Positions 224 through 30,292 of a stretch of 64,000 bases of DNA are shown one piece after another. How positions within the stretch are numbered: the first letter of the stretch is position 1; each line of letters starts with the position of its first letter. The position numbers and the translations under genes are program-made. The stretch spans positions 744,337 through 808,336 of the forward strand of contig NZ_CP075169.1 of NCBI RefSeq assembly GCF_016865525.2, given 5' to 3'. The notes beneath the pieces are model-generated. The model ran no database searches. It had not been told where the DNA came from and saw only the letters and a list, made by a program, of their open reading frames with translations. The DNA is from Sodalis ligni (GTDB lineage: Bacteria; Pseudomonadota; Gammaproteobacteria; Enterobacterales; Enterobacteriaceae).

Positions 224-265
224 TATTATTCATTTACACAAAGTATAAAATTATTCATAATAATT
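224..265 (+). promoter_or_regulatory. AT-rich upstream region with a perfect inverted repeat
   Basis: A perfect 7-3-7 inverted repeat (AATTATT, CAT, AATAATT) lies at 249-265, about 35 nt before the first gene. Just upstream, TATTATTCATTTAC at 224-237 recurs with one mismatch at 5047-5060, before the transporter genes. This could be an operator or promoter region for the locus, perhaps for the RpiR regulator encoded at 1456. The function is inference; AT-rich sequence gives such matches easily. Confidence 0.35.
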
Positions 266-298: not shown

Positions 299-721
299 AT
301 GTCTTCAAAGGATACACTTGAGTTTCATGTCCCTGAGCTGGAGCTGACGTTCAGAGCAAAACTACTGACCGATGACAATCCTGACGTGGTCCGGCAAGTG
401 TTGGCGCAGCTGCCCCTGCACAGCATGCTGGGCCATGTGGTTATTTCCGGCGAGGCCGTATGGATGCCCACCCGCATTGTGCATCTTGGCCGCAGCAATA
501 TGGTGCCGCGCTCTCCTGGAGCGGTGTATCTCTACGCGCCCGGGCAATCGATTTGCCTGACCTACGGCCGTATTACCGAAAGCGCGAAAGTGAATAAATT
601 CGGCGAGGTTTTTGCGGAGGATCTGCCCGCGCTGCAGCGGCTTGGCGCTCACGTTTGGGAACATACCGTTGCGCAACCCCGGCGCAATACCGTTGAAATC
701 ATTGTGAGGAAGGCCGCCTGA
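299..721 (+). CDS. DUF3830 / cyclophilin-like protein, possible N-terminal half of a split cucumopine-synthase-like enzyme
   Basis: The protein has 140 residues and no signal peptide or membrane segment. It resembles the DUF3830 family: an acidic N-terminal strand region, a conserved GEAVWMP segment near residue 50, a PGAVYLYAPG segment near 73-82 where the family has a PGDI.YYPG-like turn, and a closing helix with LQRLGAHVWE. The start is supported by GGAG about 8 nt upstream. Its stop overlaps the next start (TGATG), so the two are translationally coupled. DUF3830 folds are cyclophilin-like, and as I recall cucumopine synthase of Rhizobium rhizogenes combines such a domain with a helical bundle. 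The link to opine-type chemistry is inference; the DUF3830 call is firmer. Confidence 0.65.
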   Translation: MSSKDTLEFHVPELELTFRAKLLTDDNPDVVRQVLAQLPLHSMLGHVVISGEAVWMPTRIVHLGRSNMVPRSPGAVYLYAPGQSICLTYGRITESAKVNKFGEVFAEDLPALQRLGAHVWEHTVAQPRRNTVEIIVRKAA

Positions 722-1266
722 TGTCTAGCATCACGAAATTTGAAGGTCATTGGCTTGACGCAAAAGCCATTATCGAGAAAGAAATTGATCGCGTCTGGCT
801 GCATGAACCCGAAGAAATCCAGAAAATTCGCTGGGGTATTATCGACAGCGGCGCCGGCAGCGGCGAACAGTCCTTTTCGGTATTGGTGCATCTTGAGGCC
901 TATTTGATGCTGGTGGGCGCTGACGTGATGTATCGTTTCCTGAAAATATCCCAATACGACGATATGCAGTTGCCTACCCTCAATCGTATTACCCGCGAAT
1001 TTTTAACGGCGACCTTTAACGTATTTGAATTCATGACCGATCTCGGCCTGACCAATATGCATGCCATGGGACAAATGTATTCCGACGCATTGGATACGCT
1101 GGCCACCAAGGAAGAATACGTTGAGCTTACCGGCGCAATGATGACCTATGTAATTCGCATGCATCGCTGGATCCATTATATTTTTCCGTGGAATCTCGGC
1201 GTGGCTTTCCCGCACCGCAAGCCGGAGGAGCTGTTCGCCCTGACTAAGGTGTTGCCGGTTATTTAA
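721..1266 (+). CDS. Cucumopine-synthase-related helical protein
   Basis: A 181-residue, mostly alpha-helical soluble protein rich in Met, Trp, Tyr and His, with segments such as EEIQKIRWGIIDSGAG (residues 32-47) and MHRWIHYIFPWNLGVAFPH near 147-165. I believe this corresponds to the C-terminal helical bundle domain of cucumopine synthase, the enzyme that condenses L-histidine with 2-oxoglutarate in a Pictet-Spengler reaction. In R. rhizogenes both domains would be in one chain; here they are two genes overlapping by one base. The family call is from memory and should be treated as moderate. Whether the pair makes, cleaves or only binds such a product is unknown. No other product is suggested by the sequence. 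Confidence 0.5.
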   Translation: MSSITKFEGHWLDAKAIIEKEIDRVWLHEPEEIQKIRWGIIDSGAGSGEQSFSVLVHLEAYLMLVGADVMYRFLKISQYDDMQLPTLNRITREFLTATFNVFEFMTDLGLTNMHAMGQMYSDALDTLATKEEYVELTGAMMTYVIRMHRWIHYIFPWNLGVAFPHRKPEELFALTKVLPVI

Positions 1267-1275
1267 ATAGCCTTA

Positions 1276-1346
1276 TATACCCGTCATACTTCAAGTTGCA
1301 GGTGTGTTGGCTTGCCAGTAACTCGAATTATTTAGGTTATAAATCA
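1276..1346. repeat. Dispersed enterobacterial repeat fragment
   Basis: The stretch starting TATACCCGTCATACTTCAAG and running on to about 1346 is typical of an intergenic repeat seen many times in Serratia, Sodalis, Yersinia and Photorhabdus genomes. It lies in the 180-nt gap between the cucumopine-synthase-related gene and the RpiR regulator. The exact boundaries are uncertain. Confidence 0.6.
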
Positions 1347-1455
1347 GTACATTGTAAGTTGGCGCCCAATAAATGTGGTAAACGAAGGGTCGCAGTCCGG
1401 TAGCGGTAGATACTAATTTTGTATAGACTGCAGGCTGAAATATAGGGTGATAAGC

Positions 1456-2424
1456 ATGGCTGAAAGTGAATTCGTCGACCACCTCGACACTCTTCCCACA
1501 GGAATCACAATGGCTGACAGTGAGTTTAACAAAGACCTCAACATTCCTGATATGCCAGGCGTTGCCGCTATCAGCACGCAAAACGAGCGGCAAGCCATTT
1601 ATGCCGAGCTTGAGCGGCGTGCCCAGGGCCAGCGTCTCACGCCGGCACAGCGGCGGATTGCCCAATGCCTGATTGAAAACAGCAATGAAATCGGCTTTCT
1701 TTCCAGTCTCGAGCTGGCAAAGCTTGCCAATGTCAGCCAGCCCTCTGTGACCCGATTCGCCACCTCCCTGGGTTTTGGCGGCTATCTTGAGATGCGCCGG
1801 CATCTTCGTTCCGGTCTTAGCGTCACCGAAGCCCGGACGGAAACCCTGGCCAATCGCTATCAGGCGGCGGCGCAAGCGGAAATGCACAACCTTGAAGAGC
1901 TGGGGAAAATGCTTGCCGATGAGAGCCTGATTGATTCCTTCGGCGAGGCCCTTGCTTCATCCCGGCCGCTGGCCGTCCTCGGGCTGCGGGCGTCAAGCGG
2001 CCTGGCGGCGCAATTTTCCTACTTCGCCTCGAAGGTGCATCCCGATGTCCGTCTGCTGACCGGCGGCGGTTCCATCAATGAAGATCTGCTTGAGCAGGTA
2101 AAAGCCGCCGGCGGTAAAACCTTGCTGGCCTTCATGATGCCGTTGTATCCGCGGGAAACGGTGCGGGCCCTGGAGTTTGCCCGGGAAATCGGTATATCCG
2201 TGGCCCTGGTGGCGGATGCCGGTTTGGCGGATTACTCCCGCTGGTCGGACAGGCTGCTGCAGGTGCCTATCAATACCAGCCTGGTGTTTGATTCCTATTC
2301 CGCCCCTGCCGTCATTGTGTCGGTGCTGCTGGACGCCATGTGTAATCATATGAAAAACGAGGCGGAAAGACGCCTGGATCATCTTGATCACTCTTCGCGC
2401 AAACGCAAGGTATTTACCGGCTGA
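1456..2424 (+). CDS. RpiR-family transcriptional regulator (HTH + SIS)
   Basis: A protein of about 322 residues with the RpiR layout. A poorly conserved N-terminal tail is followed by a helix-turn-helix near residues 55-115 (ELAKLANVSQPSVTRFATSL then GFGGYLEMRR) and a sugar-isomerase (SIS) domain over roughly 140-280 (LAVLGLRASSGLA, LTGGGSINED, with a second half around FMMPLYPRET). SIS domains bind phosphosugars or other small ligands. It lies between the cucumopine-synthase-like pair and the ammonia-lyase on the same strand, so it probably controls this locus. The start is unsure: an in-frame GTG at 1447 and ATGs at 1456 and 1510 are all possible, and 1456 has a weak AGGG upstream. Confidence 0.85.
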   Translation: MAESEFVDHLDTLPTGITMADSEFNKDLNIPDMPGVAAISTQNERQAIYAELERRAQGQRLTPAQRRIAQCLIENSNEIGFLSSLELAKLANVSQPSVTRFATSLGFGGYLEMRRHLRSGLSVTEARTETLANRYQAAAQAEMHNLEELGKMLADESLIDSFGEALASSRPLAVLGLRASSGLAAQFSYFASKVHPDVRLLTGGGSINEDLLEQVKAAGGKTLLAFMMPLYPRETVRALEFAREIGISVALVADAGLADYSRWSDRLLQVPINTSLVFDSYSAPAVIVSVLLDAMCNHMKNEAERRLDHLDHSSRKRKVFTG

Positions 2425-2543
2425 TATCAAGCCGACTGACTTTTTAAATTCAGCCATGTATCGGCAATATCATTCATCCTGATAAGGCGAATGTATACCC
2501 GCCGTAGGGCTTCTTTTATCTGACAACTGATTGTGAGACTACT

Positions 2544-4094
2544 ATGGGCATTATATTAAAACCCGGTCATGTGACCCTTGCCATGCTGGAGTCCATTTAC
2601 TGGACAGGTGAAATAGCATGCCTGGATCGCAGCTTCGATGACGCCATAAAAGCGGGCGCGTCACGCATCGCTGAAATAGCCCAGGGGAGTGCGGCTGTTT
2701 ATGGCGTAAATACCGGTTTTGGCAAACTCGCCTCGATAAAAATCGATGGAAAGGACGTGGTTACGCTCCAGCGTAATCTTATTTTGTCCCACTGTTGCGG
2801 CATGGGTGCGCCATTGCCCGAGAATATCGTGCGGCTGATTATGTCGCTGAAACTGATTTCGCTGGGTCGCGGCGCATCCGGCGTCCGGCTTGAGCTGGTG
2901 CGGTTGATCGAGGATATGTTGGCGAAAGGCGTGATCCCGGTTATTCCTGAAAAAGGCTCGGTTGGGGCTTCCGGCGATCTGGCGCCGCTGGCGCATATGG
3001 CCGCCGTGATGCTGGGGGAAGGGGAAGCCTTCTTCAGCGGTGAAAGAATGAACGGCGCCGATGCGCTGGCAAAGGCTGGTCTGTCGCCCATTATCCTGGC
3101 GGCGAAAGAAGGGCTGGCGCTGATTAACGGCACCCAGGCTTCCACGGCGCTGGCGCTGGCGGGATTGTTCCGCGCCTATCGCGCCGCCCAGGCCTCGCTG
3201 ATAACCGGCGCCATGTCCACCGAGGCGGCCATGGGATCGGCGGCGCCTTTCCATCCGGATATCCATACGCTGCGCGGCCATCGTGGTCAGATTGACGCGG
3301 CGGCGGCCCTGCGGGCATTGCTGAAGGATTCCGATATACTGGCCAGTCATGTGGTGAATGACGAACGGGTGCAGGATCCCTATTGTATCCGCTGCCAGCC
3401 CCAGGTGGCCGGGGCCTGTATCGATCTATTGCGCTCCGTTGCCCATACCCTTGAAATCGAGGCCAATGCGGTCACCGATAATCCGCTGATTCTGTCGGAT
3501 GGAACGGTGATTTCCGGCGGTAATTTCCATGCCGAGCCGGTGGCTTTCGCCGCCGATCAAACCGCTATCGCGGTATGTGAAATCGGCGCCATCGCCCAGC
3601 GGCGCATTGCGCTATTGGTGGATCCGTCGCTGTCTTACGGCCTGCCGGCGTTCCTGGCTAAAAAACCCGGCCTGAACTCCGGCATGATGATAGCCGAAGT
3701 GACCTCCGCCGCGCTGATGTCGGAAAATAAACAGATGTCCCACCCGGCATCGGTGGATTCCACCCCCACCTCAGCCAATCAGGAAGACCATGTTTCCATG
3801 GCCTGCCACGGGGCGCGCCGCCTGCTACAGATGACGGATAATCTGTTCGGCATTATCGGCATCGAAGCCATGGCCGCCGCCCAGGGCATCGAACTGCGCG
3901 TCCCCCTGGCCACCAGCCCTGAACTGAGCCGCGCCCTGGAGGCCGTGCGTGCCGTAGTCCCTTCCCTGGAGGTGGACCGCTATATGGCCGACGATCTGGA
4001 ACAGGTCCGTCAACTGGTATTAACCGGCGCCCTGCATGCCGCGGTGTCCGCCGAGTGTGTGCCCCGGCTATCCGGGAACGATGCGTCTGCCTGA
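2544..4094 (+). CDS. hutH: Histidine ammonia-lyase (HAL/PAL family)
   Basis: This 516-residue enzyme should remove ammonia from L-histidine to give urocanate, in the cytosol. Family marks are all present: YGVNTGFG at 53-60 with the catalytic Tyr, the ASG triad at 142-144 ([10 protein letters not shown]) that cyclises into the MIO cofactor, GLALINGTQ near 190, [13 protein letters not shown] near 275, and [10 protein letters not shown] near 410. The length is normal. No hutU, hutI, hutG or hutC is present, so this is not an ordinary hut operon. Its neighbours are an RpiR regulator, opine-type transporter genes and a hydantoinase pair. A related substrate (another aromatic amino acid or a histidine derivative) is possible. 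Confidence 0.9.
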
Positions 4095-4191
4095 TATCAA
4101 TCTGTGTCCAGGCCGTAAGATACCAAAGGCCGCATTTTGGCGTCGGTTGTCTTTGTTTGGTGTTTGTTGACTTGTGCAGCGGCCCATCATT

Positions 4192-4212
4192 CCGTATAGT
4201 TATGCTATACGG
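4192..4212. promoter_or_regulatory. Palindromic operator of the higBA operon (candidate)
   Basis: A perfect 8-bp inverted repeat, CCGTATAG and CTATACGG, is separated by 5 nt and ends 18 nt before the toxin start. The right arm contains a TATACG-like stretch that could double as a -10 region. Antitoxins of the HigA type repress their own operon through such palindromes. The role is inferred from position and symmetry. Confidence 0.7.
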
Positions 4213-4229
4213 ATAGGGTGCGCTCGCAG

Positions 4230-4511
4230 ATGATTAAAAGTTTCAAGCACAAAGGAATGGAAAGGTTTTATAAAACGGGTTCTGCCGCCGGCATTCAAAC
4301 TGCCCACACTTCGCGATTACGCGGGCAGTTGTTTGCCTTAAGCAAGGCTAAAAAGCCTTGTGATATGGGCGCTCCGGGATGGAATCTCCATCCCTTGAAA
4401 GGGAACGAGGCTGGCGTTTGGTCTGTGTCGGTTAACGGTGACTGGCGTATGACGTTTCGTTTTGATGCTGATGGCGACGCCGTTCTCGTCGATTATCGCG
4501 ACTATCACTAA
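4230..4511 (+). CDS. higB: HigB-type mRNA interferase toxin (RelE/ParE superfamily)
   Basis: A basic protein of 93 residues starting MIKSFKHKGMERFY. HigB/RelE features include the early (K)GL/GMERFY segment, the LHPLKGN turn near 60, the WSVSVNGDWRMTFRF strand pair near 70-84, and a C-terminal VDYRDYH. Such toxins cut mRNA on the ribosome. An in-frame GTG exists 12 nt upstream, but the ATG at 4230 gives the family's usual start. Toxin-before-antitoxin order is typical of higBA. The pair interrupts the metabolic locus between hutH and the ABC permeases, with its own palindrome in front and a terminator behind, so it looks like an inserted module. Confidence 0.88.
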   Translation: MIKSFKHKGMERFYKTGSAAGIQTAHTSRLRGQLFALSKAKKPCDMGAPGWNLHPLKGNEAGVWSVSVNGDWRMTFRFDADGDAVLVDYRDYH

Positions 4512-4522
4512 TGGAGGCAATT

Positions 4523-4810
4523 ATGCGTATGTTTAATCCGCCTCACCCCGGTGAGGTTTTGCGTGATTACCTGGAAGGGGTTAGCGTGACCGACGCCGCG
4601 GCGTCGCTAAAGATAACGCGCACGCAACTGTCCCGTATCCTGAATGCACATGCGGCGATTACTGCTGACATGGCGTTGCGTTTATCCAGTCTGCTTGGCA
4701 CAAGTGCGGAAATGTGGGTGGATATGCAGTCTGAATATGAACTCTGGCAGGCGGCACAGAGGCCGCGCCCGGTTATCGAACCGCTGCATAGACCGCACGT
4801 TCACGCCTAA
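4523..4810 (+). CDS. higA: HigA-type antitoxin (XRE-family HTH)
   Basis: A 95-residue DNA-binding antitoxin that should neutralise HigB and repress the operon. It begins MRMFNPPHPGEVLRDYLEG, the family's signature start, then the HTH (TDAAASLKITRTQLSRILN) and a typical LGTSAEMWVDMQSEYELW tail. An earlier in-frame ATG at 4511 overlaps the higB stop, but GGAGG at 4512-4516 sits 6 nt before the ATG at 4523, which I prefer. It is intact. It is followed by a strong hairpin terminator, closing the two-gene unit. Confidence 0.9.
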   Translation: MRMFNPPHPGEVLRDYLEGVSVTDAAASLKITRTQLSRILNAHAAITADMALRLSSLLGTSAEMWVDMQSEYELWQAAQRPRPVIEPLHRPHVHA

Positions 4811-4811
4811 A

Positions 4812-4846
4812 AGACCACGCCAGCATCCAACCGGCGTGATCTTTTT
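4812..4846 (+). terminator. Terminator after higBA
   Basis: A hairpin with arms AGACCACGCC and GGCGTGATCT (one mismatch) and an 11-nt loop is followed by a T run. It lies directly after the antitoxin stop. The remaining sequence to 5107 has no gene and is AT-rich near 5030-5080, where transporter promoter elements are expected. Confidence 0.85.
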
Positions 4847-5107
4847 TGCCGCTTTTCCCCTAAGCCAGGTTATTGCCCATCGTACTTGATGTCATCGTTA
4901 GCCCTGTTTGGCGGTTACGCCAGCGGGAAAACGATATCGGTTATTTCTCTCCGATTTCTACCCGCCTTTCCCCTAGCCATACCCCTCGCTAACGCCTTCC
5001 CGGCAGGAAATGAATAGCTTTTTTCTTTTTAATTTTTTATTGCATTTATTATTCACTTACTTTAGATTGATTTAAGTGGTTGAGATTTGTACGCCTGGAG
5101 ACAGTGT

Positions 5108-5827
5108 GTGAATAACGAGAGCTTTTTTACGTTGGTGGGATTTAGCGCGAACGGCTGGGGCGCCATCCTGCTCTCCGGCGTCGCGGTCACCCTGGCGGCG
5201 GCCGTCAGCGGTTTGGTGCTCGGCCTGCTCATCGGCGTATTTGGCGCCTGGGCTAAAATATCCGGCGGCAAAACCCTCCGTTTTTTAGCCGATGCCTATA
5301 CCACTCTGCTGCGGGGCGTGCCCGATCTGCTGGTCATTTATTTGTTTTATTTCGGCAGCAGCTCCATCCTGACCGCCATCGCCGGTTACTTCGGCAGCAA
5401 GGGCTTTTTCGCCTTGCCGGGTTTCATTGCCGGCACCATCGCCATCGCCGTCATCGCCGGCGCCTTGAGTACCGAAGTGCTGCGCGGCGCATTCCAGGCG
5501 GTATCAAAAGGCGAACTGGAGGCGGCCCGGGCGTACGGCATGGGTTTTTTCCTGCGGTTTCGGCGGATTATCACGCCCTTGACGCTTCGTCACGCCCTGC
5601 CCGGTATCAGCAATGTCTGGCTGGGGCTGCTTAAGGAATCCTCGTTGCTGTCGGTTACGGGCGTGGCGGAGCTGATGCGGCAGGCCCAGGTGGCTTCCGG
5701 ATCTACCCGCCTGCCGTTCAACTTCTTTCTGGCGGCCGCCGCGCTGTATATCATCCTGGCGTCCTTCTCCGGTGTGCTGGTCCACCTGTCTGAACGCCAC
5801 TATTCACGCGGCACCAGGAGGACATGA
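5108..5827 (+). CDS. Amino-acid/opine ABC transporter permease, HisQ/OccQ-like
   Basis: An inner-membrane protein of about 239 residues with several hydrophobic segments and the HisM/HisQ permease fold. The ABC-permease EAA loop is visible as EAARAYGMGFFLRFRRIITP about two thirds along, and RGVPDLLVIYLFYFG near residue 75 is typical of basic-amino-acid and opine permeases. I chose GTG at 5108 because GGAG lies 8 nt upstream. Its stop overlaps the next gene's start. The transporter lacks a recognisable ATPase gene anywhere in the window, so it must borrow one or be incomplete. Octopine/nopaline-type or arginine-type substrates are likely. Confidence 0.88.
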   Translation: MNNESFFTLVGFSANGWGAILLSGVAVTLAAAVSGLVLGLLIGVFGAWAKISGGKTLRFLADAYTTLLRGVPDLLVIYLFYFGSSSILTAIAGYFGSKGFFALPGFIAGTIAIAVIAGALSTEVLRGAFQAVSKGELEAARAYGMGFFLRFRRIITPLTLRHALPGISNVWLGLLKESSLLSVTGVAELMRQAQVASGSTRLPFNFFLAAAALYIILASFSGVLVHLSERHYSRGTRRT

Positions 5828-6555
5828 TGGATCTCCCGTTTATTGTCGACTGCCTGCGGCGCATGCTGGCCGGCGTCCCGCTGACGCTGCAGCTGGCCGC
5901 CATCTCGCTGCTATGCGGGGCATTGCTGGGGTTGCTGATTGCCTTTGCCCGCCTGTCCGGTAATCGGCTGGTGGCCGCGTTCGGCTGGATTTATGTTCAG
6001 GTGATACGCAGCACGCCGCTGCTGGTATTGCTGTTTCTGATGTATTACGGGCCGGGCCAGTTTCCGGCCATTCGCCACAGCGTATTATGGCCGTTCCTGC
6101 GCGAGCCCTACTATTGCGCGCTGCTGGCGCTGCTGATTAACAGTTCGGGATACGCCGCTGAAATTATCCGCGGCGGCCTGCTCTCCGTACCCCACAATGA
6201 AATCGAAGCCGCCCGTGCCTGCGGCATGTCCGGCGTGCTGTTATACCGGCGCATTATCCTGCCCATTGCCATTCGCCAGGCGCTGCCCGCGTTCAGCAAC
6301 GAAGTGATTGCCATGATAAAAGCCACCTCGCTGGTATCCCTGGTGACCTTGATGGAGATCACCGGCATCGCCACCGATATCGCCTCGGAAAGCTACCGGC
6401 CGATTCCGGTGTTTATCGCCGCCGGCGCCATTTACCTGCTGATCAATTTTATCCTGACCCGCATTATCCGGGCCATTGAACACGGTTTAACGCCCCATCT
6501 GCGTTCGCCTCCGGTGAATATCATCTTGAAGGAGTCCCCCTACGACCACAACTAG
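5827..6555 (+). CDS. Amino-acid/opine ABC transporter permease, HisM/OccM-like
   Basis: This second permease of about 242 residues is paired with the preceding one to form the membrane channel. It shows the same family layout, with QVIRSTPLLVLLFLMYYG near residue 60 and an EAA loop (EIEAARACGMSGVLLYRRII). AGGAGG at 5816-5821 lies 5 nt before the ATG at 5827; another ATG at 5824 is too close. The overlap with the upstream stop implies coupled translation. The C-terminal tail is somewhat longer than usual. A binding-protein gene follows after 46 nt. Confidence 0.88.
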   Translation: MDLPFIVDCLRRMLAGVPLTLQLAAISLLCGALLGLLIAFARLSGNRLVAAFGWIYVQVIRSTPLLVLLFLMYYGPGQFPAIRHSVLWPFLREPYYCALLALLINSSGYAAEIIRGGLLSVPHNEIEAARACGMSGVLLYRRIILPIAIRQALPAFSNEVIAMIKATSLVSLVTLMEITGIATDIASESYRPIPVFIAAGAIYLLINFILTRIIRAIEHGLTPHLRSPPVNIILKESPYDHN

Positions 6556-6601
6556 ACTTCCCTTTTGCAGTGCCAACATTCAACCATATAGGAAAAGTTA
6601 C

Positions 6602-7459
6602 ATGAAGATGTCTGTTGTTACCCGGGTCGCTTTCGCTACCGCCATTACGCTGATGGGATGCCTCGGCGCCCATGCCGAACCCCAAAAATGGACAACCGTT
6701 AAAATCGTCACGGAAGGGGGATTCTTCCCGTGGAATTACACCAAGCCCGACGGCACCCTGGGCGGCTTTGAAATCGATTTGGCCAATAATCTGTGCAAAC
6801 GCATGGGGGTGAGCTGCACCATTACCGCCCAGGCATTCGACAGCATGATTCCGGCCCTGAACGCCGGGAAATTCGATGCCATTATCGATGACGTGGCCAT
6901 CACGCCGAAACGTAAAGAGGCCATCGAGTTCTCCGTGCCTTACGCTTCACTGTGCTATACCTTCGCCACCGGCAAGAACAGCGATATCGCCAAGTCCCTG
7001 CCGCCGGAAGATAAAGTGATTTCCCTTGATGACAACGCCGCGTCGTCCGAGGCCATAAAACGCGTGGCCGCCGCCCTGAAGGGCAAGACCATCGGCACGT
7101 TATCCGCCGGCACTTCCGTCACCTTTGTGAATACCTATCTGAAAGATGCGGTGCAGGTTCGCCAGTATAAAACGCCTGAATCGCGGGATCTTGATTTGGT
7201 CTCTGATCGGGTGGATGTCATTGTCGGTTCCAAAGACGCCATGCTCGGGGTCATCAAAAAACAGGGCAGCCAGAATATCGCCCTGTCCGGTCCCTGCTTC
7301 CAGGGCGGCGTCGTGGGCGAGGGTTCGGGCGTCGGCTTGCGTAAAGGGGATACCGAACTTAAGGCCATGTTCGATAAAGCCATCAAAGAAGCCCAGGCCG
7401 ACGGCACCATTAAAAAGCTGTCCGAAGCGACTTTCGGCATGGACGTCACGCCGCTTTAA
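6602..7459 (+). CDS. Periplasmic binding protein, opine/basic amino acid type (OccT/NocT-like)
   Basis: A 285-residue protein with a signal peptide ending AHA at residues 23-25. A lipobox-like LMGC lies inside the hydrophobic stretch but Ala-His-Ala cleavage fits better. The mature part has SBP_bac_3 features: VTEGGFFPWNYTKPDGTLGG, FEIDLANNLCKRMGV, and DAIIDDVAITPKRKEAIEFS. The insert with LPPEDKVISL and the tail GSGVGLRKGDTELKAMFDKA followed by DGTIKKL resemble Agrobacterium opine-binding proteins OccT and NocT as I remember them. That makes an opine-like, bulky amino-acid ligand plausible, supporting the role proposed for the two opening genes. Ligand identity is inferred. Confidence 0.85.
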   Translation: MKMSVVTRVAFATAITLMGCLGAHAEPQKWTTVKIVTEGGFFPWNYTKPDGTLGGFEIDLANNLCKRMGVSCTITAQAFDSMIPALNAGKFDAIIDDVAITPKRKEAIEFSVPYASLCYTFATGKNSDIAKSLPPEDKVISLDDNAASSEAIKRVAAALKGKTIGTLSAGTSVTFVNTYLKDAVQVRQYKTPESRDLDLVSDRVDVIVGSKDAMLGVIKKQGSQNIALSGPCFQGGVVGEGSGVGLRKGDTELKAMFDKAIKEAQADGTIKKLSEATFGMDVTPL

Positions 7460-7582
7460 CCTCTGGTCCGGCGCTTTAATCGGCATGCCCCTTCCGGCGG
7501 CGTGCCATAACGGTCTGTAGATACCGCGATATGCATCCGGGACGCTACAGCCCACTCGATATCAGGATTTTTAACGGAGAGA

Positions 7583-9676
7583 ATGACTGTGGCTTCCACT
7601 GCCGTAACGCAGCGTCAGGTCAGAATCGGCGTCGATTCCGGCGGCACCTTTACTGACATCTGTATCTATGATGTGGCCGAAGGTTCCATTCACGTTTGGA
7701 AAGTGAGCAGTACGCCGGCGGATCCTTCCATCGGCATCGCCGACGGCATTGCCCAGGGCATCGCGTCGTTAGGGTTGGGGTCAGGTGAGTCTGTGAATGT
7801 GACTTACCTCGGGCACGGCACCACCGTGGCCACCAATGCGCTGATTGTCGGCAGCGGGGCGGCAACCGGCATGATTACCACGGCGGGTTTTCGCGATATT
7901 ATCGAATTAAGACGGCAAAAGCGTGACGGCCTGTATGACGTGCAAACCGAAAAACCGCGCATCCTGGCCTTGCGCAATCAGCGGCTGGAAGTGAACGAAC
8001 GGGTGCTGTTCGACGGCAGCATCATGACCCCGCTGGATGAGGAAGAAGTACGCGGCGCGGCGCGCCGGCTGCGTGAGGACGGCATCCGCGCCATCGCGGT
8101 GTGCTGCCTGTTCAGCTATCTGGAGCCCCGCCATGAGCAGCGTATCAAGGCGATCCTGGCCGAGGAGATTCCCGGCGCTTTCATCAGCGTCTCCCATGAG
8201 GTGAACCCGGAATTCCGCGAGTACGAGCGCTTTTCAACCACCGTGGTGAACGCCTATCTCGGGCCTATCATGCAGCGCTACCTGCAACGGCTCCAGCCTC
8301 GCCTGGAGGCCATTGGCATCGCCGCCCACCCTCATCTCACCCAGTCCAACGGCGGCGTGATTTCCGCCGATACGGCGCAGCAATTCCCGGCGCGTACCGT
8401 CCTTTCCGGCCCGGCGGCGGGGGTGATGGGGGCCACTACCATCGGTACGCTGTCGGGTTTTGATAATATCATTACCTTCGATATGGGGGGCACCTCAACG
8501 GACGTTTCGCTGATTTCCGACGGCCGGCCGCAGATGGCGAACGAATCGGTCGTACACGGCTACCCGCTGAAACTGCCGATGCTGGACATCCATGCCGTGG
8601 GCGCCGGCGGCGGGTCCATCGCCTCCATCGACGCAGGCGGCCTGTTGCAGGTAGGGCCGCAGAGCGCCGCCGCCGATCCCGGCCCCATTTGCTACGGCCT
8701 GGGCAACGAGGATAACCCCACCGTCACCGACGCCAATGTGGTGCTGCAGGTGCTCAATCCCACCCATCTGCTGAACGGGCGCCTGCCCATTGACCAGGCC
8801 AAGGCGAAAAAGGCCATTGCGCGGCTCGGTGATCGCATCGGCATGGATGTCATGTCGGTGGCGCAGGGTATTATCAGCGTGGTGGTCAGCAACATGGCCA
8901 AAGCCATCCGGGTCATTTCGGTGGAACGGGGCTACGACCCCAGGGATTATACCCTGTTCGGCTTTGGCGGCGCCGGCCCCATCCATGCCTCCCGGCTGGC
9001 GCGGGCGCTGGATATGCCCCGGGTGGTGATTCCCAAACACCCCGGCATCATGTGCGCCATCGGCCTGCTGCTCACCGACCTGCGCACCAATTTTTCCACC
9101 TCCCGGCTGATGCACCTGGAAGAAAGCAGCACCGGTGCCATGGAAGCGGCGTTCACCGATCTCGAGCAACGGGCAGGCGCCTGGTTTACCCATGAAAAAA
9201 TTTTTCCCGACAATCGCGTTATGGTGCGTTCCGTCGACCTGCGCTACGGCGGACAAGGCTATGAACTGAATATTCCCTGTCCCGCCAGAGTGATTGACGC
9301 CGCCGCCGTGGAGGCGTTGAAAAAAACGTTCGCGGCCTATCATCAGCAGATGTACGGCTACATTGCCGAGGGGGAACCTATCCACCTCACCACTCTGCGA
9401 CTGGAGGTCATCGGTCGCGTGCCAAAAGCGGATCTCAAACCGCTGGATAATGCCGTCACCCCCGTGTCGGCGGCGCGGCAGGGAGAACGGCAGGTGTGGC
9501 TGCCGGAAATGGGCGGTTTCACCCTTTGCCCGGTGTACGATCGCGAGCGCCTGGGGCCAGGCCATTGCCTCTCCGGGCCGGCCATTATCGAGCAGATGGA
9601 CTCCACCACGCTTATCCTGCCGGGCCAGAACGCCACTATCGATAGCTATTTGAATATTATTATTGAGGAAGCCTAG
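7583..9676 (+). CDS. hyuA: Hydantoinase/oxoprolinase subunit A (ATP-dependent, HyuA)
   Basis: A 697-residue cytosolic protein of the HyuA/N-methylhydantoinase A/5-oxoprolinase family, which uses ATP to open cyclic amides such as hydantoins or 5-oxoproline. The actin-like ATPase signature GVDSGGTFTDI lies at 16-26, and FDMGGTSTDVSLI lies near residue 300. A GHGTTVATNALI segment near 75 and RVISVERGYDPRDYTLFGFG near 450 are family marks. The length is normal. It follows the binding protein by about 120 nt and is separated from hyuB by 3 nt. In this context it probably opens a ring in a histidine-derived compound, possibly hydantoin-5-propionate; this is a hypothesis. Confidence 0.9.
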   Translation: MTVASTAVTQRQVRIGVDSGGTFTDICIYDVAEGSIHVWKVSSTPADPSIGIADGIAQGIASLGLGSGESVNVTYLGHGTTVATNALIVGSGAATGMITTAGFRDIIELRRQKRDGLYDVQTEKPRILALRNQRLEVNERVLFDGSIMTPLDEEEVRGAARRLREDGIRAIAVCCLFSYLEPRHEQRIKAILAEEIPGAFISVSHEVNPEFREYERFSTTVVNAYLGPIMQRYLQRLQPRLEAIGIAAHPHLTQSNGGVISADTAQQFPARTVLSGPAAGVMGATTIGTLSGFDNIITFDMGGTSTDVSLISDGRPQMANESVVHGYPLKLPMLDIHAVGAGGGSIASIDAGGLLQVGPQSAAADPGPICYGLGNEDNPTVTDANVVLQVLNPTHLLNGRLPIDQAKAKKAIARLGDRIGMDVMSVAQGIISVVVSNMAKAIRVISVERGYDPRDYTLFGFGGAGPIHASRLARALDMPRVVIPKHPGIMCAIGLLLTDLRTNFSTSRLMHLEESSTGAMEAAFTDLEQRAGAWFTHEKIFPDNRVMVRSVDLRYGGQGYELNIPCPARVIDAAAVEALKKTFAAYHQQMYGYIAEGEPIHLTTLRLEVIGRVPKADLKPLDNAVTPVSAARQGERQVWLPEMGGFTLCPVYDRERLGPGHCLSGPAIIEQMDSTTLILPGQNATIDSYLNIIIEEA

Positions 9677-9679
9677 GCC

Positions 9680-11371
9680 ATGTCCGATAGCAACGTCTCA
9701 TTACCGGCGCAGGCAGCGTATCAAAGAACATGCGATCCCATTACCGTGGCGGTGATCGCCAGCGCCTTGTCCACCATTGCCGAAGAGATGGGTAAATCGG
9801 TTATCCGTTCCGCCTATTCCACCAATATCAAGGAACGCCAGGACTGCTCCACCGCCGTTTTCGATCCCGAAGGCCGTACCATTGCGCTGGCGGAGCATAT
9901 TCCCATCCATCTCGGCTCGCTGCTGGGTATCGCCAAATACGTGCTCGATCATAACGATCTCACGGACCTGCGTCCGGGCGATGCTTTTATCGGTAACGAC
10001 GCCTATACCGGCGGCGGTACGCATTTAAACGATTTTGTGTTGATGGAGCCGGTGTTTCACGATGGGAAGCTGGTGGCCTGGGTAGCCAACCTGGCCCACC
10101 ATTCCGATTTCGTTGATCGCAGCCACAAGCATATCTTCCAGGAAGGCCTGCGCATCCCGCCGGTGCGCCTCTATCGCGCCGGGATATTGCAGCAGGATAT
10201 TCAGGCCTTGATTTTGCTGAACTGTCAGGTGCCCAGGGAGCGCATCAACGATTTGCGCGCGCAGATGGCCGCCAACCGGCTTGGGGTACAACGGGTCCAA
10301 AGCCTGTGCGAGAAATACGGCGCGGAACTGATGGCCAACGCCGCGCGGGAGTTTTTGCTCTCCACGGAACGGCGGACCCGCGCCGGTATTGCCGGCATCC
10401 CCGACGGCGTCTATGAATTCCGCCACGATTTCGACACCAATCTTATCGACGGCATTCTCGACCTGCAGGTACGCATCACCGTGCAAGGCGATGAAATTTT
10501 CTTTGAGTTCCCCGACGCGCCGCCGCAGATGCCTGCGCCCATCAATATGGTCTATACCGCCCTGCTGGCGACCATTTATTTTGCCGTTAAGGCCTTGATC
10601 GATCCCGATATTGCCGTGAATGAAGGCTTTTATCGCCCGATTCACGTTAACGCCGCCGAGGGCAGCGTATTGAATTCGTTGCCGCCTGCCGCGGTCTACA
10701 GCCGGACGGATATCGCGCAACGATTGGTGGACATGATTTTCGCCGCGCTGGCGCCGGTGGTCCCAGAACGCGTGGCCGCCGGGTCCACCGGCGGTACGCT
10801 GCTGACCACCAGCGGCATGCATCCCCGCACCGGGCGTTTCTATGTGTACAATGAAATGCAGGGCGGCGGCATGGGCGCGCGCGCCGACAAGGACGGCCTG
10901 GACGGCGTACAGGTGAATATCACCAACACCGCCAACCTGCCTATAGAAGCGCTGGAAAGCGAGCATCCGATCCTGATTGAACGCTATGAACTGGTGCGTG
11001 ATTCCGGCGGCCCCGGCCGGTTTCGCGGCGGCATGACCATGCGGCGGCGGGTCAGGGTCCTTGACCATGTCGCCACCATCTCAGCCGGCGGCACCAACAG
11101 CCTGATTGCCCCCTTCGGCCTCTCCGGCGGCATGCCGGGATTGCCGGCGCGCGTTGACCTGCCGGAAGGAGCGCCGCCGCTGCACCGCCGCGCCGGCATG
11201 CTGCAACCGGGCGAGAGCGTGGATATGATTGCCGCCGGCGGCGGCGGTTTCGGCGATCCGAAGCAGCGAGACCGCGCCCTGGTATTGCGCGACCTGAAGG
11301 AAGACCGGATTTCACTGAGTGCCGCTCTGGATATTTACGGGATGAAGATGGACGAGATCCAAGATATATAA
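9680..11371 (+). CDS. hyuB: Hydantoinase/oxoprolinase subunit B (HyuB)
   Basis: A 563-residue partner of the preceding subunit, needed for the ATP-driven ring-opening reaction. Family marks are ITVAVIASALSTIAEEMG near residue 22, SAYSTNIKERQDCSTAVFD, NDAYTGGGTHLNDFVLMEPV near 110, and the Gly-rich GGGMGARADKDGLDGV and AAGGGGFGDP near the C-terminus. The start lies 3 nt after the hyuA stop, so the two form one unit. It is the last gene of the metabolic locus. AT-rich accessory DNA begins soon after its stop. Confidence 0.9.
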   Translation: MSDSNVSLPAQAAYQRTCDPITVAVIASALSTIAEEMGKSVIRSAYSTNIKERQDCSTAVFDPEGRTIALAEHIPIHLGSLLGIAKYVLDHNDLTDLRPGDAFIGNDAYTGGGTHLNDFVLMEPVFHDGKLVAWVANLAHHSDFVDRSHKHIFQEGLRIPPVRLYRAGILQQDIQALILLNCQVPRERINDLRAQMAANRLGVQRVQSLCEKYGAELMANAAREFLLSTERRTRAGIAGIPDGVYEFRHDFDTNLIDGILDLQVRITVQGDEIFFEFPDAPPQMPAPINMVYTALLATIYFAVKALIDPDIAVNEGFYRPIHVNAAEGSVLNSLPPAAVYSRTDIAQRLVDMIFAALAPVVPERVAAGSTGGTLLTTSGMHPRTGRFYVYNEMQGGGMGARADKDGLDGVQVNITNTANLPIEALESEHPILIERYELVRDSGGPGRFRGGMTMRRRVRVLDHVATISAGGTNSLIAPFGLSGGMPGLPARVDLPEGAPPLHRRAGMLQPGESVDMIAAGGGGFGDPKQRDRALVLRDLKEDRISLSAALDIYGMKMDEIQDI

Positions 11372-12192: not shown

Positions 12193-12549
12193 AACTTCTC
12201 CGAATTTCAACCGTCTATCCCGGTAGGTAGATATTTAAATTGACACAAATCAAAAGGTTATGTCATCACTTTCTATTTCGATACGCCCTTCGGCAATGCT
12301 ATACCGGCCCATAGACCCGACCGGATACGCCAAAGTACGGTGTAGAAGATAAGGAAATTTCCGGTCGAATGGCTGTATTTTTTGTAATAAAGCGTGATCG
12401 TGGTAATTATCAGAAAACTACGTTGATTTGGCAATAGATAACAGAGGTCGGTACAAGAATAAAATCACCCCGTAAACGCTTTGTTCATAGGGTATTCCGG
12501 TTGGCCAAGGCCTTTGTGTCAACATCGTGAAGTGGTGGCCCCTTTTCAA
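12193..12549. other. Gene-free stretch before the IS21-family element
   Basis: This AT-rich 357-nt stretch should carry the promoter of the minus-strand RcnB-like gene near its left end. I see no gene and no clear RNA structure. Confidence 0.4.
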
Positions 12550-12576
12550 CGTTTCCGTTGTCCACTGTTTATCGTT

Positions 12577-14536
<1,960 letters not shown>

Positions 14537-28470: not shown

Positions 28471-29484
28471 ATGCGTGTATTGGGTATTGAAACGTCCTGC
28501 GACGAAACCGGTGTGGCGATTTATGACCAACAGGCGGGCCTGCTGGCCAATCAGCTATACAGCCAGGTGAAGCTGCATGCCGATTACGGCGGCGTGGTGC
28601 CCGAGCTGGCCTCGCGGGATCATGTACGTAAAGCCGTTCCGCTGATCCAGGCGGCGCTGCTGGAAGCCGGCATGGGGGCGAAGGATATTGACGGCGTGGC
28701 CTATACCGCCGGTCCCGGCCTGGTGGGCGCGCTGATGGTGGGCGCCACGGTGGGACGGGCGCTGGCCTATGCCTGGGGGGTGCCGGCCGTTGCGGTACAT
28801 CATATGGAAGGCCATTTGCTGGCGCCGATGCTGGAAGCGAATCCGCCGGCGTTTCCCTTTGTGGCGTTATTGGTCTCCGGCGGCCATACCCAATTGATCC
28901 ATGTGGCCGGCATCGGCCGCTATACGCTGCTGGGTGAATCCATCGACGATGCCGCCGGCGAGGCGTTTGATAAGACCGCCAAGCTGCTGGGGCTGGATTA
29001 TCCCGGCGGTCCGCGGCTGTCGCAACTGGCGCGGCAGGGCGTCGCCGGACGCTTTACCTTTCCGCGCCCCATGACCGATCGCCCCGGTCTGGATTTCAGT
29101 TTCTCCGGTTTGAAAACCTTTGCCGCCAATACTGTGCGCGCCAGTGAAGGGGACCCCCAGACCCGGGCGGACATCGCACGGGCGTTTGAGGACGCGGTGG
29201 TGGATACGCTGCTTATCAAGTGCCGGCGGGCGCTGGAACAAACCGGGCTCGAACGCCTGGTCATCGCCGGCGGCGTAAGCGCCAACAGTGCCCTGCGCGA
29301 ACGCCTGGCGGCCATGATGCGAAGCCGAGGCGGCCAGGTATTTTATGCCCGTCCGGAGTTTTGCACCGATAACGGCGCCATGATTGCCTATGCCGGGATG
29401 GTGCGTTTGCAAAACGGGATCATGGGGGATTTGGCCATCACGGTAAGGCCGCGCTGGCCGCTGGCGGAATTACCGGCGCTGTAA
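28471..29484 (+). CDS. tsaD: tRNA N6-threonylcarbamoyladenosine synthase subunit TsaD
   Basis: 337 residues. TsaD transfers the threonylcarbamoyl group to A37 of ANN-decoding tRNAs, together with TsaB and TsaE. Visible marks are [19 protein letters not shown], the metal-binding HHMEGHL near residue 110, VSGGHTQLI near 134, the substrate-site [17 protein letters not shown], and [16 protein letters not shown] near 268. Length and start are normal. The gene stands alone, divergent from rpsU, as in E. coli. Confidence 0.97.
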
Positions 29485-29497
29485 GCTCCGCCAGGCT

Positions 29498-29656
29498 GCT
29501 GACAAACGTACTCGGAGTCAATAAGGAGGGACAGGCTGCCAGAAGAGTAAACCGTCCGCGCCAGGGATGGCGCGGATCGAGCCTACAAGGACGTATTTAC
29601 GGCGTGTTTACGATCTGGCAGCCTGTCACGACCGGGTACTTTGTCAACAAGCTCCG
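29498..29656. repeat. Palindromic dispersed repeat element
   Basis: An element of about 160 bp between tsaD and plsY. Its outer arms are imperfect inverted repeats: GACAGGCTGCCAGA (29529-29542) pairs with TCTGGCAGCCTGTC (about 29612-29625), and beyond these TGACAAACGTACTCGG pairs loosely with CCGGGTACTTTGTCA. The centre contains CCGCGCCAGGGATGGCGCGG, itself a hairpin, and GTAAACACGCCGTAAATACG when read on the minus strand. I associate this sequence with repeats found many times in Sodalis-like and related enterobacteria. It may also act as a terminator. Confidence 0.65.
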
Positions 29657-29659
29657 TTA

Positions 29660-30292
29660 TCAGCTTTTATGATTTTGCCGATCATCGATATCCAAATCCT
29701 TTTTGCGTTTGCGCCATAGGCGGCTTTCCTGGCCGCGCCATAATCGCTGGATATTGTCATGGTGGCGCAACAAGACCAGGCACGACAGCATCGACACGGG
29801 AAAAGTGAACTGCGGTTTAAACCACCAGACATAAAATGGCGCTATCAGGGCGCTGATGATAGCGCCCAGGGATGAATAACCGCTTAACAGCACCGTCAGC
29901 AGCCAGGTGCCGGCCATCAGCCCGGTCAGGTCCCAGCCGATGGGCGCGATGGCGCCGAACGCCGTGGCGACGCCTTTGCCGCCCTGGAAGTGAAAGAATA
30001 CCGGGTAGATATGCCCGATACAGGCGGCAATGGCCACCAGGCCCAGGTAAAACGGCGGTATCCCCAGCCGGTAACCCAGCCAGACCGGCAGCATCCCTTT
30101 GAGCACGTCGAACACCATGACGCCGGCGGCGGCGAACCGGCCGCCCAGGCGCAGGACATTGGTGGCCCCAGGATTGCCGGAGCCGTGAGTGCGGGGGTCG
30201 GGCAGGCGGGCTATCCTGCAGATCAGGATCGCGCTTGATACCGAGCCGCAAAGATAGGCGAAGATTATCATGCCGATCGAAAGAGCATTCAT
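29660..30292 (-). CDS. plsY: Glycerol-3-phosphate acyltransferase PlsY
   Basis: 210 residues. PlsY uses acyl-phosphate to acylate glycerol-3-phosphate, the first step of phospholipid synthesis, in the inner membrane. The start [20 protein letters not shown] (ATG 30292) matches the family; the frame is open a further 8 codons upstream. Motifs are [12 protein letters not shown] near residue 36 and [13 protein letters not shown] near 103. Five hydrophobic segments are visible. The basic C-terminal tail [16 protein letters not shown] is typical of enterobacteria. Transcribed away from folB. Confidence 0.96.

Follow-up and report, generated by a model that had tools for sequence, protein, structure and literature searches.

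The window analyzed here is a stretch of 64,000 nucleotides from Sodalis ligni (assembly GCF_016865525.2, contig NZ_CP075169.1, positions 744,337 to 808,336 of the forward strand) that lies on one contig of 6.44 Mb. Near its start, between positions 299 and 11,371, it harbors a gene cluster encoding a two-subunit relative of cucumopine synthase together with functions for amino acid uptake and histidine degradation, which is described below as a candidate opine-utilization cluster. An earlier note on this DNA had named a gene pair, an RpiR regulator, HutH, two permeases of the ATP-binding cassette (ABC) type, a binding protein, HyuA, and HyuB; all of these are present on the plus strand at the positions listed below. 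The HigB/HigA toxin–antitoxin pair located within the cluster was absent from that gene list.

224..261, plus strand: 38-base promoter/operator-like motif upstream of the gene pair (41.4 bits; no other site of the window above 19.1 bits)
299..721, plus strand: subunit 1, DUF3830-type cyclophilin-like protein with the invariant Glu E94 (assigned by phmmer and fold; PF12903 below cut-off)
721..1266, plus strand: subunit 2, Cucumopine_C helical bundle (PF18631 and fold)
1447..2424, plus strand: MurR/RpiR-family regulator, probably the regulator of the cluster (HTH_6, 52.5 bits)
2544..4094, plus strand: histidine ammonia-lyase HutH (TIGR01225, 713.2 bits; cut-off 539.15)
4218-4810: HigB/HigA toxin–antitoxin pair, between HutH and the permeases (Pfam: HigB toxin and helix-turn-helix antitoxin)
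5087..5827, plus strand: HisQ-like ABC permease (below equivalog cut-offs)
5824..6555, plus strand: ArtM/HisM-like ABC permease (below equivalog cut-offs)
6602..7459, plus strand: OccJ/NocT-like periplasmic binding protein (SBP_bac_3; best match 5ore)
7583..9676, plus strand: HyuA, predicted ATP-dependent lactamase-type subunit (Hydantoinase_A, 338.4 bits)
9680..11371, plus strand: HyuB, partner subunit of HyuA (caprolactamase beta, 264.7 bits; cut-off 1000)

The reading frames of the first two genes overlap by one base. The claim that their products resemble the two domains of cucumopine synthase was upheld for subunit 2, which matched Cucumopine_C (PF18631) with 90.8 bits (cut-off 27) in the Pfam scan, whereas the DUF3830 assignment of subunit 1 failed at the threshold (PF12903, 20.5 bits; cut-off 26), and a PF12903 search of the own genome gave no match at E ≤ 0.001. 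The kinship of subunit 1 with the family is therefore based on its fold and on phmmer, which related it to KslB, McbB, and kindred chains with E-values between 2.9e-6 and 3.3e-5. Structure models were calculated by means of AlphaFold2, with a mean predicted local distance difference test score (pLDDT) of 81.7 for subunit 1 and 85.7 for subunit 2. Among the 43 PDB chains matching the subunit 1 model at E ≤ 0.001, the best 34 were KslB or McbB (TMq 0.77–0.86), and the remaining nine were cyclophilin-like proteins; for subunit 2, all 12 chains at this threshold were KslB or McbB.

An alignment of 30 rows covering both domains, from which one locus with a broken partner gene (L017) and the second copy of plasmid pRi1724 (L022) were left out, featured the residues L38, P39, H46, G51, Y89, G90, E94, and G116 of subunit 1 and P30, G46, P156, and G160 of subunit 2 as invariant in all rows. 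E94 was aligned with chain residue 118 of McbB (3x27) according to our own count, which we take to be the catalytic Glu, E97. KslB and McbB resemble the window pair in both folds and in this invariant Glu, but are single fused chains acting on tryptophan in beta-carboline biosynthesis, and the domain order of KslB is opposite to that of the pair. Both orders occur in the family, namely C–N in KslB, cus, cus2, and one further protein of the own genome (L037), and N–C in mis, McbB, the fused Agrobacterium vitis protein, and another own-genome protein (L036). Homology and predicted folds place the pair at 299–1266 in the cucumopine synthase/McbB/KslB family of Pictet-Spenglerases, with the enzyme divided over two polypeptides. 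KslB uses 2-oxoglutarate as substrate (PMC12513458).

Regarding the degradative functions, the proposed histidine ammonia-lyase was confirmed by its score above the TIGR01225 cut-off. HyuA and HyuB matched the caprolactamase alpha (605.3 bits) and beta subunits, respectively, both below the NCBIfam cut-offs of 1000. By these scores, HyuAB is kin of the caprolactamase CapAB and not CapAB itself. A role in opening lactams suits HyuAB better than that of a genuine hydantoinase. Cucumopine, the 4S,6S compound, and mikimopine, the 4R,6S compound, have lactam forms, and ring closure of a histidine/2-oxoglutarate adduct to its lactam would yield a substituted 5-oxoproline; the term 'mikimopine lactam' did not occur in the literature searched. 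HyuAB-type proteins of pTiEU6 were proposed to open lactam opines (PMC6733357), and the link between HyuAB and lactams was also drawn for rideopine (PMC8554961). Relatives of HyuA were detected in 1013 of 72,556 plasmid records, including tumor-inducing (Ti) plasmids, and are so widespread that HyuAB alone proves little.

The proposed OccT/NocT-like nature of the binding protein was borne out, its best match in the PDB being the octopine-binding protein OccJ (5ore; 1.1e-60, 208.7 bits), followed by nopaline-binding proteins. In LAO and HisJ, the amine of the ligand is held by Ser72 and Asp161, in place of which NocT has Gly97 and Ser207 (PMC4192606). Gln165 of NocT binds the guanidinium group. 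The two LAO positions are occupied by Ala and Ser in the window protein and by Gly and Ser in its pRi1724 counterpart, and both amine-locking residues are missing in all eight aligned cluster homologs; the own genome's other binding protein that is associated with HutH (L039) retains the Asp. At the position of NocT Gln165, the window protein has Leu. These residues would fit an N-substituted amino acid without guanidinium, as a histidine opine is. The octopine signature comprises Tyr33, Trp71, Ser91, Gln159, and other residues (PMC5740067), and at these four positions the window protein has Phe, Phe, Ala, and Leu. OccJ and NocT are thus its closest solved relatives, likewise without the LAO-type Asp161, but the window protein retains neither the octopine nor the nopaline signature in full. 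Octopine and nopaline were rejected as substrates, since neither the OccJ signature nor Gln165 of NocT is conserved.

To place the cluster among related ones, 18 other loci encoding the pair were surveyed by means of tblastn within the sequence available for each (E ≤ 1e-8; 15 loci plus L021, L023, and L024, excluding the second pRi1724 copy). An RpiR regulator was found in 14 of them, HutH in nine, HyuAB in nine, an OccJ-type binding protein in seven, a second ABC system of the PotD type in eight, and an ABC system of any kind in 15. The expected co-occurrence across genomes is therefore conserved, but not universal, three loci having none of these partners. The gene order of the window is kept in Sodalis dw_96, in strain BGMRC 2031, and in S. 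praecaptivus, and among these the HigBA insertion was found in dw_96 only. BGMRC 2031 carries the database name Martelella alba, whereas its description places it closest to S. praecaptivus (PMC7864827). On plasmid pHS1 of S. praecaptivus, the pair, RpiR, HutH, permeases, binding protein, HyuA, and HyuB are collinear with the window (71–83% identity), but this cluster differs in its plasmid location, in the ABC ATPase gene that follows it, in the absence of HigBA, and in its poor upstream motif.

Searching the Cucumopine_C protein against the 72,556 plasmid records (tblastn) yielded matches in seven, two of which were copies of the mikimopine root-inducing (Ri) plasmid pRi1724, with 81.5% identity for subunit 2 and 74% for the DUF3830-like partner. 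The pRi1724 pair adjoins the transferred DNA (T-DNA) on its outer side and is accompanied by HyuAB, RpiR, and an amino acid ABC transporter. RolB-family genes are followed by a 308-residue Cucumopine_C protein in the position of the mikimopine synthase gene mis, by the border-like sequence GACAGGATATAT, and by the pair, beyond which an MR_MLE_N-domain gene, ABC genes, HyuB, HyuA, GntR, RpiR, a second ABC system, and formimidoylglutamate deiminase are located. The 308-residue protein (WP_176453671) was identified as Mis because of its position beside RolB-family genes, its two domains, and the statement that mis lies close to the right border on pRi1724 (PMC5606197). By statistics alone, the border-like sequence is weak (three matches at ≤2 mismatches, 1.74 expected), and its position makes it plausible. 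The existence of synthase homologs outside the T-DNA has already been published, riorf22/23 being named as non-T-DNA homologs of mis (PMC4242671).

Both the window and the pRi1724 region encode a split pair (74% and 81% identity), an RpiR regulator, a binding protein of the OccJ type with two permeases, and HyuAB, and both have the upstream motif. The pRi1724 region differs in its location on a plasmid beside T-DNA, in having its own ABC ATPase along with GntR, formimidoylglutamate deiminase, and a second ABC system, in the absence of HutH within the 32.5 kb examined, and in gene order and strand. The window shares with mikimopine-type catabolic regions the combination of mis homologs with opine-type transport and HyuAB; its cluster lies on the 6.44 Mb contig and not on a plasmid with a matching T-DNA synthase.

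A comparable arrangement was found for cucumopine. A search with the fused A. vitis protein matched 18 plasmid records, among them its own. On the cucumopine plasmid pRi2659 (L040), the T-DNA gene cus lies beside RolB genes (12234-13196, minus strand), while genes for LysR, MmgE/PrpD, ABC proteins, HyuB, HyuA, HutC, HutH, a fused paralog, and cus2 (29301-30248, plus strand), followed by a second ABC system, HutF, HutI, HutG, HutU, and HutD, are located outside the T-DNA. The genes cus and cus2 have an 837-bp block in common with 99.6% identity and diverged ends, which looks like a recent duplication or gene conversion. Plasmid pAtAG67, which was called octopine/cucumopine-catabolic with reference to Hooykaas 2022 (PMC10745273), carries in the stretch examined a gene set matching the pRi2659 catabolic region (cus-type genes, HutH, HyuAB, and HutU/I/F/G), and the fused query matched only two places on it, with no third, T-DNA-type copy. 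Both plasmids resemble the window in combining Cucumopine_C/DUF3830-type enzymes with HutH, HyuAB, and an amino acid ABC system, but differ in their fused enzymes, two paralogs, HutC and LysR in place of RpiR, hut genes alongside, and a binding protein of another type; that of pRi2659 belongs to a different family and is not comparable with the window's. In the mikimopine and cucumopine systems alike, a non-T-DNA synthase homolog is thus accompanied by HyuAB, transport, and histidine degradation genes, the latter being represented near the pRi1724 pair by formimidoylglutamate deiminase only.

In the tree calculated from the 30-row alignment, mis was placed inside the clade of split pairs (19 rows, support 99/98), and cus grouped with cus2 (100/100), so that the two T-DNA synthases do not fall together. 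The grouping of cus with cus2 is trivial because of their shared block. The identity of mis is 43–46% to split pairs versus 24% to the fused A. vitis protein.

Upstream of the pair, the 38-base motif scored between 37 and 45 bits in eight of 18 regions, namely those of the window, Sodalis dw_96, BGMRC 2031, Phyllobacterium, Chelatococcus, Mangrovicella, one metagenome-assembled genome, and pRi1724, between 24 and 34 bits in four, and below 20 bits in six. The scores were computed on the same set that was used to build the motif, which includes near relatives and, for some loci, upstream regions defined by the start of the BLAST alignment as gene start. The shuffling control was rough (log-likelihood 196–217 for six shuffled sets versus 345, with 12 starts each versus 60 for the real set). 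A link between motif and RpiR is a guess.

Taken together, homology and gene context suggest a chromosomal opine-utilization cluster for a mikimopine-type Pictet-Spengler adduct of histidine and 2-oxoglutarate, for which we estimate a probability of about 0.7. The earlier note had expected uptake and degradation, or synthesis, of a cyclic histidine derivative, a proposal that is supported, neither of the two refuting results named in the note having been obtained, and that can be narrowed to uptake and degradation of a mikimopine-type opine because of the close relationship between the pair and the non-T-DNA mis homolog on pRi1724. The substrate with its stereochemistry, the direction, and each of the following reactions are what we infer from this kinship and the gene content. 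The OccJ/NocT-like binding protein and the two permeases would import the opine and its lactam with the aid of an ABC ATPase encoded at another genomic site, and HyuAB, a member of the 5-oxoprolinase/caprolactamase family, would open the lactam. The two-subunit DUF3830-like/Cucumopine_C enzyme would then catalyze a reverse Pictet-Spengler reaction to L-histidine and 2-oxoglutarate, which HutH would pull by converting histidine to urocanate, with hut genes elsewhere in the genome continuing from there. RpiR would control the promoter at 224–261. The literature searched, which largely comprised sources other than subscription journals, contained no description of enzymes that break down mikimopine or of a comparable cluster in relatives of Sodalis.

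Several results weigh against this reading. A tblastn search with the ATPase of S. praecaptivus (E ≤ 1), covering the whole window and the adjoining 12 kb on its upstream side, detected neither an ABC ATPase gene nor remains of one. HutH and HyuAB each occur in only half of the other loci, no surveyed partner was found in L012 (only 5.4 kb), L013, and L014, and an M24 peptidase/creatinase-like gene neighbors the pair in L013, L014, and S. medicae (L023); for L013 and L014, nine proteins were scanned for alternative partners. Numerous bacteria that are not known to meet opine-producing galls also encode the pair (161 proteins), and pRi2659 carries two non-T-DNA paralogs. The motif is poor in S. 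praecaptivus (<20 bits) in spite of the collinear cluster. The branch of mis is long (3.09), the tree program warns of long branches, and both its exact place and the assignment to mikimopine rather than cucumopine are therefore unsure. Finally, products of Pictet-Spengler reactions are usually stable, so that the retro-reaction is not a given.

The same chemistry could instead serve another histidine-derived ring compound, such as spinacine or a different keto acid adduct, widespread in soil or plant exudates, with the Agrobacterium opines representing a special case. The occurrence of the pair in rhizobia, Chelatococcus, Paraburkholderia, Cupriavidus, Pseudomonas, Verminephrobacter, and metagenomes, mostly without a known T-DNA plasmid, and the carbonyl partner differing within the family between McbB and KslB (PMC12513458) are in favor of such a compound, which is nevertheless unlikely in view of how closely the cluster is related to the pRi1724 genes next to mis. 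Biosynthesis of a mikimopine-like signal, metal binder, or nitrogen store, with the transporter recovering the product, appears improbable: all relatives with known activity that we could name (KslB, McbB, mis, and cus) are synthases, and the catabolic-region twin on pRi2659, nearly identical in its core to the T-DNA cus, should be capable of the forward reaction, but the genes that commonly neighbor the pair encode HyuAB, HutH, and an importer, histidine would be drained off by HutH, and the corresponding region of pAtAg67 was called cucumopine-catabolic (PMC10745273). An ordinary histidine or hydantoin utilization cluster in which the pair has an unrelated role is in agreement with the HutH score and the commonness of HyuA relatives, but was discarded as very improbable, because the binding protein has neither of the amine-locking residues of LAO/HisJ, hutU and hutI lie 2.2 Mb away, and the element common to all compared loci is the pair itself, a relative of opine synthases.

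Under the preferred reading of mikimopine-type opine degradation, the pair would act as a two-subunit opine lyase by a retro-Pictet-Spengler step, which is undescribed in the literature searched. We give somewhat less than an even chance to the wider reading in which the pair is such a lyase, lyases of this kind are old environmental enzymes, and the plant-expressed T-DNA synthases mis (from the split-pair lineage) and cus (from the cus2 lineage) were derived separately from two bacterial lineages of them by using the reaction in the forward direction. If true, this would provide a mechanism for histidine-opine breakdown, extend the use of histidine opines beyond the agrobacteria, in this case to a relative of Sodalis, and support the recruitment of T-DNA opine synthases from bacterial degradation enzymes, in this case twice. 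The pair would also offer a natural two-polypeptide Pictet-Spenglerase, and the question of degradation would be directly testable in E. coli.

The cluster was found to be rare in Enterobacterales, as deduced from the few matches of subunit 2 among sampled genomes: five of 119 family members, two of them close (the own genome and one at 83%), and one of 394 order members, again the own genome. It was probably moved horizontally. Another enterobacterium, Serratia entomophila, was named for a DUF3830-like partner with 72% identity.

Within the own genome, subunit 2 matched four places, window included, and no T-DNA setting was encountered among those compared. A second, cucumopine-type cluster lies at approximately 5.157–5.175 Mb (L036:9836-14745 and L037:31-11384) and encodes a fused protein with 66% identity to the pRi2659 paralog, ABC proteins, HutC (67%), HyuB (60%), a HyuA cut by the edge of the two sequence stretches, and, immediately ahead of a second HutH (69%), a C–N-order protein with 55% identity to the T-DNA cus. 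This cluster may be incomplete, since its binding-protein frame is short (174 amino acids, 137/299 positions matched) and a match was obtained for just one permease. Each of hutU and hutI gave one match over the cut-off, at 2.96–2.97 Mb. A further HutH-like gene (518.8 bits, below the cut-off) lies beside an ABC system whose ATPase, being 73% identical to that of S. praecaptivus, could serve the window's permeases.

At the downstream end of the cluster, where the ATPase gene is located in S. praecaptivus, this gene is missing in the window; IstB-like and transposase-like frames, presumably of the IS21 type, follow just downstream at 12577–14536. Insertion sequence (IS) genes were also observed near the pair in L014. 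A distant split pair (30% and 26%) was detected at 1.177 Mb of the own genome (L038:8689-9651, minus strand), outside the recognized opine clusters. In Paraburkholderia phenoliruptrix, plasmid pSYMBR3459 carries a very divergent split pair (L042:8528-9543) beside GntR and amino acid ABC genes and near genes for CtlX and ornithine cyclodeaminase, which is possibly dedicated to another amino acid.

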